DNA from: Desulfobacterales bacterium
Lineage (GTDB): Bacteria > Desulfobacterota > Desulfobulbia > Desulfobulbales > JAGXFP01
Assembly: GCA_024637225.1 (NCBI GenBank)
Contig: JAGXFP010000034.1
Span: 62,001 to 126,000 of the forward strand
DNA length: 64,000 nt
Reading direction: 5' to 3'
A program made the position numbers and the translations under genes. Positions 24,812 to 51,944 of the stretch are shown here, one piece after another (within the stretch, counting starts at the first letter, position 1; each line of letters begins with the position of its first letter). The notes beneath the pieces are model-generated. The model saw only the letters and a program-made list of their open reading frames with translations. It did not search any database and had not been told where the DNA came from.

Positions 24812-24914
24812 GTCGTTGACAAGCTTGGCGAAGAACAAGGAAGAGACCATTTGGCTGTAGTAAAGCTACGCCAAATGGTCGATGGCGCAGTAATTCGTCA
24901 AGATCGTCAACGAC
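24812..24914. repeat. Nested palindrome element D (hypB-hypF gap, outer arm overlaps hypB stop)
   Basis: Outer GTCGTTGAC/GTCAACGAC; inner GACCATTTGGC-TGTAGtaaaGCTACG-CCAAATGGTC. Confidence 0.75.
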
Positions 24915-33331: not shown

Positions 33332-33399
33332 CCCTTTTTTTACTTTTTTTATAACTGTTCACCGGGGTGATCGCCCAAAGTATTCAAAACCGCCGGACT

Positions 33400-33505
33400 G
33401 TAACCGTTCAGCAGTGGTGCGGATTGGACAAGCGGACCGGCGCCGCGTACCTCGTGTACGTAAGCCGGGCCGGTCGTCCGAAGACGGTGTGTGCTGAACG
33501 GTAAC
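33400..33505. repeat. Nested palindrome element A
   Basis: Arms GTAACCGTTCAGCA (33400-33413) / TGCTGAACGGTAAC (33492-33505), 13/14 complementary; core GACCGGCgccGCGTACctcgtGTACGTaaGCCGGgccGGTC. Confidence 0.85.
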
Positions 33506-34901: not shown

Positions 34902-36211
34902 TTACCCGGTAGCAACGCCCAAGGCGAGTAAGGAAAGCAAAATTACCAGCAAAGAAATCCGGGGGAACGGTTTAAGCATTAAACTGCTAAAAAGATAACT
35001 GCCGAGAACCGAAAAAATAACAACCCCGCAAAACTTGATTATAGAATCAAGTTCGGTGAATTGTCTGAAAAACAATTGGCCCACGACCACCAGTAAAAGA
35101 TGATTCAGATAGAGATAATATGAATGGTCGGCCAAAAAACCATGGATCTTCGATGGTTTCGCCAGATAACGGCAACCCAGTAACAACAGAGCAAACAACA
35201 GACTCAGACACAGGGAATAACGGACAAAACAGTACAACAGGGTAATGTCCGGCCGGCTTGTGCCGCTGAAAATCTGTTGATGGAGCGGGAAATAAACGGC
35301 GATAAGGGCAAGAGACGTGCTCCCCCAGAAAAGGAGTTTGCCCGGTGGGGGCTTTTCGATGAACCATTGCCGGGTGAAGGCATAAACCCCCAGGCCGAAA
35401 TAGCAAATATACACCATGAGCCGAGGGGATTGAAACTGGATAACATTGTAGATGATGATCCAGCGTTCAAAAGACATGTAGGAATTGATCACATAATAAC
35501 TCAGGGAGCAAAGCGCACCGACAGCAAGAAGAATTATCCAGGAGTACCCCTCCCCCTGTAACCAGTCACGGGACGAGCCGCCCTGGTTTGGCTTATCTCC
35601 CATCCTGTAAGGGCTTACCTCCCCTCTCTCGAAAGGCCCGGAGCCGTGGCCTCTTGGGTCATTTATTTTTCCGGCGCTCCATTTCCCCTTGATCGCGTCG
35701 CCAAGCCCGAAAAACAGGAAAAAGAAGAAAAGCAGGGAAATAAACCAGGCGTAATCCAGACTGAACTGATCCATTGAATGGATAAAACCGAGATGAAATC
35801 GCCTTGCATCACCCAAAAACAGAGCCCAGTAAGAAAAAATCCATTCTGGTAAATAGTGTCGGCCCGGGCGATATGATAAATATAATGGATCACCGGCACG
35901 ACAAGGGTGACACAGACGAGCCAGGGGCCGAGGAGGCGGACCGCCTTATTCCCAAGGAACCGGCCCAAGCCCTTTTTCCGCAAGGATGGCAGGGCGAAGA
36001 ATCCCGCCAGAAAAAAAAGGGTCGGCATCATGATAATATCGGGCAGCTGGCGAAACAGATCGAAAAACGACATCGAGGCGGGGTCGGGATCGCGGACAAA
36101 CCACCAGGAGACCGCTTCCCCATAGCTATCCGCGGCATGCTGTAAAACCACCAGCATAATGACCAGATAACGGAGACGGTCGAAGGGCGGAAAACGAGGC
36201 GGATCAGACAC
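34902..36211 (-). pseudogene. Acyltransferase family 3-like gene split by a frameshift near 35870-35890
   Basis: ORF 35663..36211 carries the N-terminal part and ORF 34902..35816 the C-terminal TM part. Reading through in the second frame gives PLYLSYRPGRHYLPEWIFSYWALFLGDARRFHLGF, a plausible continuation. Confidence 0.75.
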
Positions 36212-45500: not shown

Positions 45501-45628
45501 TTACCCAGTAACGAAGCCCGGGAAATCGAGTTCTAGCAGAGTTTGATACATAGCCATAATATTTATAGTGGCTGCCGATCCCCCGACCGATCCATGCCTA
45601 GCCCTCCGATCAAATTGCCCCCCTCCCC

Positions 45629-45734
45629 CCGCGGTCACAGGGCGGTGCAGATTGCGGCAAGCGGCCCGGCGATGCGTAGCCCCGCTACGTGAGCCGGGCC
45701 GATCGCCGCAAGATGCGCCGTCATGTGGCCGCGG
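45629..45734. repeat. Nested palindrome element B
   Basis: Arms CCGCGGTCACA (45629-45639) / TGTGGCCGCGG (45724-45734); inner GGCCCGGC...GCGTAGccccgCTACGTgaGCCGGGCC. Confidence 0.85.
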
Positions 45735-45735
45735 G

Positions 45736-48515: not shown

Positions 48516-49960
48516 CCCTCCCCGCCTCCCTTATAGCGGTGGAAAACGCCGCGTTTCAGCCAGAGCCAGAGCAGGCTTTTCAGCCCCTGGGCGGCCGCCT
48601 TGACATCCCGGCTGTTCCTGATTTTCAAAAGCCTTTTGAACATATACGACGGGCGGCCGTAGAACCTCTTAAAGGCCAGCTGCCTCAGGGTCTGGATCTC
48701 CTCCCTGGTCATGGTGTAGGGCACAAAGGCCGCGCCCTGATAGGTGAAATCGCTGAGGTCTTCGGAGATGGTGCCGTGTTTTTCCAGATTGTCGTAGAGC
48801 TCCGTGCCGGGAAAGGGGGTGATGGCATGGAAGTTGGCGATATCCGGGTTGAGCCGGCAGGCGAAATCGATGGTCGCAAGGCCATCCTCAAAGGTCTGGC
48901 CCGGGATCCCGAAGAGAAAGGGGGTATAGACGGTCAAACCCACCTCCTTGGCGGCCTTGACCGCTTTTTCGATCTGGCCGACGGTGATGCCCTTGTGGAT
49001 AGCGTTGAGGTTTTTCTGCACCCCGCTTTCCGCCCCGAAAAGGATGGCCCAGCAGCCCGCCTCCCGGAAGGCCTTTAAGAGTTTTTTATCTACCTGGTTG
49101 ACGCAGGCCGAGACGAACCAGGTGAAATCCAGGCCGCGGCGCTTGATTTCCCCGGCGAATTCCATGGCCCGCTCGTAGTCGGCCGCCAGGGTATCGTCGA
49201 GGAATTTGATCTCGCGATAGCCCTGGCCGAGAACCAGTTCGATCTCCTCCATTACATTGGCGATACTGCGATAGCGGATGCCGCTCTTCCTGTATTTGTC
49301 GATCTGGAAACAGTAGAGGCAGCGGCGGTCGCAGCCCCGCGAAGTCATGAGCACCGCCACCGGCTTGCGCCGGTAGGTGGCGGGCGGCGGAATGTAGCGC
49401 TCGGCGTCGCCCAGCAGCTCCCGGGCCGGAAAGGGCAGGCTGTCGAGATCGGTGATCAGGGGCCGGGGCGGATTTTTCACGATTTCGCCGCGGTCCCGGA
49501 AGACGATTCCTTCAACCCCGTGCAGAGAGCGCTCTTCGCCGAGGCGCTCCAGAAGCTCCCCCATGGTCAGCTCCCCTTCGCCGGTGACCACCGCATCGAT
49601 ATCCGGGCAATCCGCCAGACATTTTTCCTGCACGGCCACGGCATAGGGCCCGCCGACCACCACGAAAATCCGGGGATCGAGCCCCTTAATCGCCGCCGCC
49701 GTTTTCATGGCCTTATCCCAGCCGAAGGTGGTTGAGTAAAGGCCGACCACCTCCGGGCGGATCTCGGCCAGCCTGGCCATGATGGTTTCGTGGGAAATAA
49801 AGGCGCCGTTCAAAAATTCGACCCGGTGCCCGGCCTTTAGCAACGCGGAGGCGACGTACAGGGTGCCGAGCGGCTGCCAGTAGTTGATCTGGGAGCCCGC
49901 GGTTTTCTGGGAAAAGATATCCTCCGGCAGCCAGGCCGGCAGGACGATGGCGCAATTCAT
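48512..49960 (-). CDS. B12-binding domain radical SAM protein (likely start MNCAIVLP; tracked ORF extends upstream through a repeat)
   Basis: Cobalamin-binding-like N-terminus (PLGTLYVASALLKAGHRVEFLNG); radical SAM MTSRGCDRRCLYCFQ. Confidence 0.9.
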   Translation of the reverse strand: MNCAIVLPAWLPEDIFSQKTAGSQINYWQPLGTLYVASALLKAGHRVEFLNGAFISHETIMARLAEIRPEVVGLYSTTFGWDKAMKTAAAIKGLDPRIFVVVGGPYAVAVQEKCLADCPDIDAVVTGEGELTMGELLERLGEERSLHGVEGIVFRDRGEIVKNPPRPLITDLDSLPFPARELLGDAERYIPPPATYRRKPVAVLMTSRGCDRRCLYCFQIDKYRKSGIRYRSIANVMEEIELVLGQGYREIKFLDDTLAADYERAMEFAGEIKRRGLDFTWFVSACVNQVDKKLLKAFREAGCWAILFGAESGVQKNLNAIHKGITVGQIEKAVKAAKEVGLTVYTPFLFGIPGQTFEDGLATIDFACRLNPDIANFHAITPFPGTELYDNLEKHGTISEDLSDFTYQGAAFVPYTMTREEIQTLRQLAFKRFYGRPSYMFKRLLKIRNSRDVKAAAQGLKSLLWLWLKRGVFHRYKGGGEG

Positions 49961-49965
49961 TTTTT

Positions 49966-50073
49966 GTAAGCGATCACAGGGCGCCGAATCTGCTGTGTTA
50001 TCACCCTGCTCGTGTACACCAGTACACTTAGCAGGGTGATGCCTTGCATCTCCACCACCCTGTAATCGCTTAC
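49966..50073. repeat. Nested palindrome element C
   Basis: Arms GTAAGCGATCACAGGG / CCCTGTAATCGCTTAC (15/16); inner ATCACCCTGCT/AGCAGGGTGAT and GTGTAC-acca-GTACAC. Confidence 0.88.
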
Positions 50074-50129
50074 CGGATGGGAGATTGGCCAATTCCGGGT
50101 GGCTTATCCCGTGATCGGTAATCATTTTT

Positions 50130-51944
50130 TTATTCATCAAAATATACCTTAACCAGGGTTTTATAACCGAACAAGTCGCTGCTCTGTTCAAAAGCCCGTA
50201 CTTGGCGGTATCGGGAAACCCTCTCCCGAATCGCCGCCGGCAGGCGCGGAGTTCTGGAATAAATCACCACCAGGGGGGCCGCTTTGTTCAAGGCCCCTTC
50301 CGGCGGCCGGTAGAAGTCGGGCAGCTGCTGCTCCCAGGTGAAACGGAAGGAAGACTTCATCTCGAGGGCTGGCGGCTCGGCATCCACCAAACCGTTCAGG
50401 GAGTATATCCTCTTGTTCGTGAAGAGGTCAAGGAGGGGGATGTTAATCAGCAGATTGGGGTTCCGGGCGCTCTGCGGCGCGGTATAAACGGCGATCTCTT
50501 CGGCGGCGAGGCTGTTCAGGAAGCGGCCGCTTTGCTGGATATTCGTCGTGCTGAGCTCGCCGGTAAAGGGCAGGAAACCGCCGAAGACCAGGGTTAATGA
50601 ACCGCCGAGGGCGGAGAGGACCAGGAATTTCCGCAGCCGTTGACCGGGCAAGCGCCTGAGTCCGCAGGCCGCGGCAACGGCCAGCAGCGGGAAGATCGGC
50701 ACGAGATAGCGGATTCTTTTGACCTCTAAAATAATGAGCAGAAGAAAAAGCAGATAGGCGGGGCCGATGAGTCGTTTGTCTTTTTTGTAGAGGCCGATCC
50801 CCAGGCCGGACAGGGCGGCGAGACTGACCAGGGGATGGATCTGGAAAAAGAAGGTGGAGAAAAAACTTTCCGACCATCTCGACAGCCCCGGCCGCTGGTA
50901 TTCGACGAGGAGCTTGAGTTGCGCCCAAACGACCTCCCATAGCCCAATCAAAAGGGGCAGGCTGAAAAGCAGTACGAGAGCCAGGGTCTTCGCGGCCGCC
51001 CAGCCGGCTTTCTTGTAATCGGCAGGGCTCCGGGCCAGCACGATGACCGGCAGGACGGTGAGCAGCAGCCAGGCGGAGTATTTCGCCCAGAAGAGCAGAA
51101 AGATCGCGCAGGCGGCAAGCGCAATCGAGCGGTGGCCGCCGTCGCGGAGGGCTCTGGAAAAGGTGTACAGGGTCAGGATCAAAAAAAACAAGGTGGGAAG
51201 ATCGACCATCATCAGGGGAATCTGGAGGAGGAGATAGGGGTGGCAAAGGAGTAGCAGCCCCGCCAGGAAGCCGGTTTCTTCATCCCGGAGATCTTTTCCG
51301 TAAAGATAGGTGAGCAGAACCGCGCCGACAAAGAAGCAGGTGGTAAGAATCTGGATGAATATCCTCGCCTCGCCCAGGCCGGCGAAAACCAGGCCATAGA
51401 GGAATGGAATTAACGGCAGATCCGTCCAGGCGGAGATCTCTCCGCCCCACCCCTGCCAGAAAGCCTTTATGCCGTGGACCTCAAGATATTTGGCCTGGCT
51501 GAAATAGCGCGAGGCATCCATGATAAGCTCCGGCTCGCCCCATAAGGAGATCCCGACCAGAAAGGCGATTACCCCCAGAAAAAGCGGCTTGCGCCCCGGC
51601 CAGGCAAGCCTGGAAAGAAACAGGGCGGCTCCGGCCGTCACCACCGTCACGCCGTACAGGAGCAGCGGCGGCCCGTCGCGAAAGACCCACTCCCAGCGGC
51701 AGAGCGAATTGTTGTCCAGGGCTCGAAAATGATAAAGAAGAACCGGGAGGACAATCGAAAAGAGAATACCGAGAAGAACCGATGGCCAGGAGTAGTTTTT
51801 CAAGAATTGCGCCGAAGATGTCGGGGCTGAGATCGAGGCTTGAGGGAGGGGCTGACTTACTCCTCCGAGTTCTGCCTGAAAAAGTCCCTGATTAAAGCCG
51901 ATGATGCCTGATCTGTTCCATAAGTACGAATCATTGGCAATCAA
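50130..51944 (-). CDS. ArnT/GT39-like membrane glycosyltransferase
   Basis: Multipass; EPELIMDASRYFSQAKYLEVHG, YLYGKDLRDEETGFLAGLLLLCHPYLL. Confidence 0.8.
   Translation of the reverse strand: MIANDSYLWNRSGIIGFNQGLFQAELGGVSQPLPQASISAPTSSAQFLKNYSWPSVLLGILFSIVLPVLLYHFRALDNNSLCRWEWVFRDGPPLLLYGVTVVTAGAALFLSRLAWPGRKPLFLGVIAFLVGISLWGEPELIMDASRYFSQAKYLEVHGIKAFWQGWGGEISAWTDLPLIPFLYGLVFAGLGEARIFIQILTTCFFVGAVLLTYLYGKDLRDEETGFLAGLLLLCHPYLLLQIPLMMVDLPTLFFLILTLYTFSRALRDGGHRSIALAACAIFLLFWAKYSAWLLLTVLPVIVLARSPADYKKAGWAAAKTLALVLLFSLPLLIGLWEVVWAQLKLLVEYQRPGLSRWSESFFSTFFFQIHPLVSLAALSGLGIGLYKKDKRLIGPAYLLFLLLIILEVKRIRYLVPIFPLLAVAAACGLRRLPGQRLRKFLVLSALGGSLTLVFGGFLPFTGELSTTNIQQSGRFLNSLAAEEIAVYTAPQSARNPNLLINIPLLDLFTNKRIYSLNGLVDAEPPALEMKSSFRFTWEQQLPDFYRPPEGALNKAAPLVVIYSRTPRLPAAIRERVSRYRQVRAFEQSSDLFGYKTLVKVYFDE

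Follow-up and report, generated by a model that had tools for sequence, protein, structure and literature searches.

The window, that is, the whole stretch of 64,000 nt that was analysed, comes from a draft genome of the order Desulfobulbales (G000, 3.28 Mb in 74 contigs) and contains four palindromes, A to D, which an earlier note on the sequence had grouped as a family of four with a common ~105-bp design. All four were found at the positions it gave, with folding z-scores of –4.8 (A), –8.4 (B), –6.9 (C) and –6.8 (D), and none of 200 dinucleotide-preserving shuffles made for each folded equally well. The grouping holds for A, B and C, which were recovered when the window was scanned with a covariance model, but not for D, which the model missed. 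The features are as follows:

24812..24914: element D, a non-member palindrome between a hypB-like gene and hypF; single copy, same place in congeners
33351..33505, plus strand: element A, A-type, full length, 155 bp (82.9 bits in the covariance-model scan)
33351–33399, plus strand: left module of A
33400–33505, plus strand: palindrome of A
35566..35618, plus strand: relic of a C-type left module, without hairpin (79% identity over 53 bp)
45628..45735, plus strand: element B, a hairpin-only copy with its core as in A (105.6 bits)
49958..49965: target-site duplication of C, copy one, CATTTTTT (8/8 match)
49966..50122, minus strand: element C, C-type, full length, 157 bp (75.5 bits)
49966–50073, minus strand: palindrome of C
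50074–50122, minus strand: left module of C
50123..50130: target-site duplication of C, copy two, CATTTTTT (8/8 match)

D is an object separate from the family formed by the other three. There is one copy in the host genome, and two congeners (G001 and G002; loci L223 and L224) carry it at the same place between the two genes; in the G002 version the outer arms and the inner stem are altered and still pair. The minus strand of D also contains a conserved reading frame (DDLxELLRH...GLFLVLRQAC).

Anatomy and variants of the element

The ~105-bp palindrome is real, but in A and C it is just the right part of a mobile unit of ~155 bp, which consists of a left end of 42–48 bp followed by an imperfect palindrome of 107–109 bp. 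The A-type unit reads GTAACCGTTCACCGG...(48 bp)...GGACT, then GTAACCGTTCAGCAG – core – CTGCTGAACGGTTAC, and the C-type unit, on the minus strand, has the identical layout (GTAACCGATCACGGG..., GTAAGCGATTACAGGG – core – CCCTGTGATCGCTTAC), so that there are three copies of the terminal repeat, one at each outer end and one as the internal 5' strand of the palindrome. The outer arms had been described as unrelated; those of A and C are in fact variants of a GTAA.CG.TCA terminus, the outer left arm being the internal copy of the terminal repeat, and only B has lost its GTAA ends, its arms being rewritten yet still complementary. Part of the variation of the outer arms reflects differences in the terminal repeats from one lineage of the element to another. 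One copy of the duplication flanking C (49958..49965) includes the start codon (ATG) of the minus-strand gene downstream. The target duplication of A is not clear, as T-runs (CTTTTTTT and TTTTTTTG) border the element, and inspection of the sequence around B revealed neither a left module nor a visible target duplication.

Hairpin-only copies also occur elsewhere, at L093 (7/8 duplication) and at L158 in the congener G001 (GATTTTTT, 8/8). G001 additionally contains versions of ~209 bp, with an insert of ~50 bp at the hairpin tip, one of which shares the target site CATTCCGC with a copy in G000. The tip insert (GAAGCTGAGTTGAGCAGCTCGTCTGCTCGTACGAAACTTATGCCCTGTGGGTG) is found in several G001 copies with differing target duplications (L145–L149), and related sequence lies beside the G000 copies L091 and L094. 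Tandem or internally duplicated palindromes at L150 (G001:C161), L002 (G000:C18) and L249 suggest local amplification besides transposition. At L113 (158–474, RIFOXYD12_FULL_56_24), a hairpin with C-type arms is inserted in the palindrome of an A-type element.

Mobility and IS66-type ends

Among 73 full-length copies, chosen by their ends alone and mostly from the host genome and a congener, exact 8-bp target duplications were present in 27 and 9-bp duplications in none, and the borders matched at 7 or more of 8 positions in 43, compared to 1.1% of shuffled pairings. One A-type copy is nested in a C-type copy and flanked by a duplication of its own, AATCTCCC, which amounts to a natural empty site, and in G004, which belongs to another genus, the same gene pair (L225) has a single uninterrupted CATTTTTT target from which element C is absent. 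The mobility suggested in the earlier note is thereby supported. With its ~155-bp length, lack of coding sequence, matching inverted termini, target duplications and empty sites, the element has the features of a miniature inverted-repeat transposable element (MITE).

The termini point to the transposon family. ISDge4, a member of the ISBst12 group for which transposition has been seen, has the ends GTGACTACTCAGCA and GTAACTGCTCAGCA and an 8-bp repeat (PMC12898284), and the GTAA-type termini and 8-bp duplication that characterize IS66/ISBst12 ends are also found in the MITE. Full-size IS66 elements of the order start with GTAAGCG and have exact 8-bp duplications, and smaller, single-ORF IS66 elements match the MITE ends better than the full-size ones do. 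These smaller elements, all with exact 8-bp duplications, include L282 (1733 bp, a 530-aa transposase, GTAACCGTTCA at both ends), L290 (ends GTAACCGATCAGGGG), L288 (ends GTAACTGTTCAGG), and L284 and L286 (ends GTAACTATTCAGC); the two ORFs checked, from L282 and L290, match PF03050. In the L290 element (711–1586 and 1582–2991, G144), a DruA-domain (PF14236) gene precedes the transposase. Since the IS66 elements of the order share these termini and exact 8-bp duplications, A, B and C are with high probability copies of a non-autonomous MITE that belongs to the ISBst12-like group of the IS66 family and resides in Desulfobulbales. The DDE transposase of a single-ORF IS66 element would work in trans on the outer GTAA..TCA repeats, and integration of the unit would duplicate 8 bp of the target; of this scheme, the ends, duplications and empty sites are directly observed.

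Compared to the ISBst12 group, with which it has in common the GTAAC..TCAGCA-type termini and 8-bp duplications, and of which matching autonomous elements are present in the same order, the MITE lacks a transposase gene and has a conserved 108-nt palindrome. No IS66 transposase ORF is contained in its 155 bp, so it is not an autonomous IS66 member. The palindrome was also considered as a part of autonomous IS66 elements and is absent from the IS66 loci examined; the MITE is therefore not simply an internally deleted form of these. The host draft, which is 87.9% complete, yielded neither an IS66 transposase gene nor a PF03050 match, and no autonomous element was found alongside the MITE in one genome with ends identical to its own; multicopy IS elements may be missing from draft assemblies. 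In G001, IS66 is present only as a remnant, an internally deleted element of 987 bp with the ends GTAACAGTTTAGTCC and GGACTAAACTGTTAC (L110, 895–1881).

The earlier note had instead pointed to a REP-associated Y1 tyrosine transposase (RAYT) recognizing the hairpin, as for REP/BIME repeats. The copies are indeed palindromic, intergenic and multicopy, and the host genome has 11 Y1_Tnp matches. However, a comparison of positions placed none of these beside any copy, and a DDE transposase is indicated both by the IS66-type ends and by the exact 8-bp duplications, where a REP/RAYT system would leave no target duplication. REP and BIME sequences are likewise palindromic and extragenic, but differ from the MITE, which has 8-bp duplications, DDE-type ends and a 108-nt multi-loop stem. 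We therefore regard mobilisation by a RAYT as extremely improbable. Integron attC sites, considered because the outer arms vary while pairing is kept, were set aside on the basis of the target duplications and IS66 ends.

Distribution, fold and strand asymmetry of the hairpin

Scanning of the host genome and its relatives supports the family of constant length proposed in the earlier note, shows it to be multicopy and traces it across the order. The host draft contains ~37 A-type, ~43 C-type and several B-type copies, roughly 90 in total, these counts being approximate as partial matches are included. Exact matches to the element pattern were found in relatives, namely the Desulfobulbales MAG C14-07 and a RIFOXYD12 deltaproteobacterium. 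With the covariance model (R1, up to 14 matches scored per genome), the hairpin was detected in at least 175 of 263 genomes and at least 55 of 69 genera of the order, and the matches usually span all 108 positions. In the complete genome G008, the first 400 kb holds 22 strong copies, 11 on each strand, corresponding to a density of tens of copies per megabase. No Rfam covariance model matched the window at the gathering score, or element A at E ≤ 5. Element A had no match in plasmids, and viral contigs yielded no match to one exact 25-mer. A search of the open literature returned nothing relevant on IS66-derived MITEs or on MITEs in Desulfobulbales. Judging from these negative results in Rfam, plasmids, viral contigs and open papers, the family is apparently undescribed.

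The fold plan is constant: 22 bp, a 2 × 2 loop (G-A/G-A), 7 bp, a 3 × 3 region (A.C, A-U, G.A) and 9 bp, followed by a small asymmetric loop and a tip of ~6 bp. In 37 diverse palindromes, standard pairs occupy 88.7% of the pair cells, well above the shuffled (72.2%) and slid (26–37%) controls, and two-sided changes occur at 37 of the 47 pairs, in agreement with the predicted covariation of the stems. In the order-wide set 91.2% of cells are paired, with 398 two-sided cells; since this alignment was itself fitted using the model, and many of its 68 rows repeat an element as a match on the second strand, the test on 37 palindromes weighs more.

The two strands of the hairpin are not equivalent. 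With sense defined as the orientation in which the left module lies upstream, the sense fold is stabler than its antisense counterpart in every one of the 38 sequences folded. Across 39 sense rows there are 183 G-U pairs and 19 A-C pairs, and pair 17–125 is G-U in 38 of the 39; the covariance model may favour the strand richer in G-U, but the orientation was fixed independently by the left module. Borders matching at 7/8 or 8/8 positions were found for 29 of 43 order-wide copies, most of the 29 giving an upstream module of 42–48 bp. As the border scan took the best of many offsets, the evidence here is the tight module length and the GTAA start, and not the match count alone.

These observations bear on how the self-complementarity arose. 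It could be a by-product of inverted-repeat correction through template switching, with no selection on the fold; such correction is able to create perfect arms, and rewritten arms with perfect or nearly perfect complementarity are seen in B and in a G132 copy (L262). However, it should also erase mismatches, whereas the internal loops and G-U pairs persist from genus to genus and the two strands differ in their mismatches, which leaves this explanation improbable. The hairpin has very probably been kept by selection on single-strand structure.

Further information comes from the repeated terminus. Between the internal arm and the right end, 27 differences were counted in 23 composites, 18 of which lead to G-U (these are not independent events) and 0 to A-C. 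In the GTAACTATCC lineages the left and right ends share 12 identical bases, while all or nearly all changes in the internal arm are wobble changes. Most simply, the transposase keeps the outer ends alike, and base pairing constrains the internal strand. The right end would have a double job, as one of two matched ends for the transposase and as the 3' strand of the hairpin, and the internal 5' strand would stay paired, often through G-U, even as its sequence and that of the terminal repeat move apart.

The strand-specific G-U bias indicates selection on a single strand, and we infer that RNA rather than DNA is probably the selected form. The same mobile element could carry a fold that acts as single-stranded DNA, for example through hairpin extrusion in replication or in end recognition. 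DNA hairpins also tolerate G-T and tandem G-A mismatches, DNA parameters likewise favour the sense strand, and the right arm of the hairpin doubles as a transposon end, all of which would suit a DNA fold. Against this, DDE transposases are expected to act on duplex ends, the copies in the first 400 kb of G008 show no strand bias, and the near-invariant adjacent wobble pairs 16–126 and 17–125 are typical of RNA. A DNA fold appears rather unlikely in view of these points, and an RNA fold is preferred. Taken as a whole, the model of an ISBst12-like MITE with a hairpin selected as a single strand is well supported in our judgement, more firmly than the choice of RNA.

Level of selection and possible roles

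The earlier proposal of selection on structure applies to the single-strand structure, but not to individual copies, since most copies within one subfamily decay. Single stem changes within the A, C and G004 subfamilies comprise 49 to G-U and 31 to A-C, plus many plain mismatches. Single copies thus decay nearly neutrally within subfamilies, and the selection is seen between lineages; it would act on propagating copies and not on each insertion. According to a simple ORF caller, 71 of the 73 full-length copies lie outside genes. Their orientation relative to host transcription shows no significant bias (20 same, 31 opposite), which weakens a role of every inserted copy in host mRNA; a host regulatory RNA within each mRNA was set aside on this ground.

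The copies could alternatively be host-adapted regulatory or terminator RNAs, spread as repeats and kept for the benefit of the host. Their location outside genes would fit, as would the G132 hairpin at L262 (1501–1608), whose arms are rewritten to AAAAACGGGCGGCAG...CTGCCGCCCGTTTTT and which, with its stem followed by a T-run, resembles an intrinsic terminator that has been built out of an element. However, the near-neutral decay of copies within one subfamily and their unbiased orientation to genes make this unlikely. Together with the intergenic placement, these features suggest that the fold serves the element itself more than the host at each site.

No one function of the fold can be put forward other than tentatively. 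We hypothesize that it may be a structured RNA module that steers the element in transcripts, through processing, stability or tolerance of intergenic insertion. More speculatively, the element could be the bacterial counterpart of a SINE, a structured RNA that is mobile, in which a ~108-nt RNA inherited across the order functions in mobilisation, control or host tolerance. Bacterial MITEs are usually viewed as decaying transposon fragments, their hairpins following from the inverted repeats; here the hairpin is evidently selected, with its own loop plan, strand-specific wobble and order-wide compensatory change. The many diverged versions allow swaps, making it testable whether MITE hairpins act as RNA and aid the spread of the element.

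Correia/NEMIS, QMITE2, RUP and BOX are likewise small bacterial repeats whose transcripts fold into long stems, but they derive from other transposon families and follow other target rules, and we know of no report of order-wide covariation with wobble asymmetry for them. ERIC (IRU) sequences are 127-bp imperfect palindromes of enterobacteria with 5'TA3' termini (PMC2229807). Like the MITE, they are short palindromic repeats that are mobile, lie between genes and form a long RNA hairpin, and as described they are set apart from it in length, termini and host group; the MITE in addition consists of two modules, duplicates 8 bp of its target and has a covarying fold specific to one strand. The Chunjie MITE of Geobacter uraniireducens, at 178–235 bp (reviewed in PMC10969869), is also a MITE of a (former) deltaproteobacterium and, compared by description only, is similar in its conserved terminal and direct repeats and its many copies, which are intergenic and inside operons.
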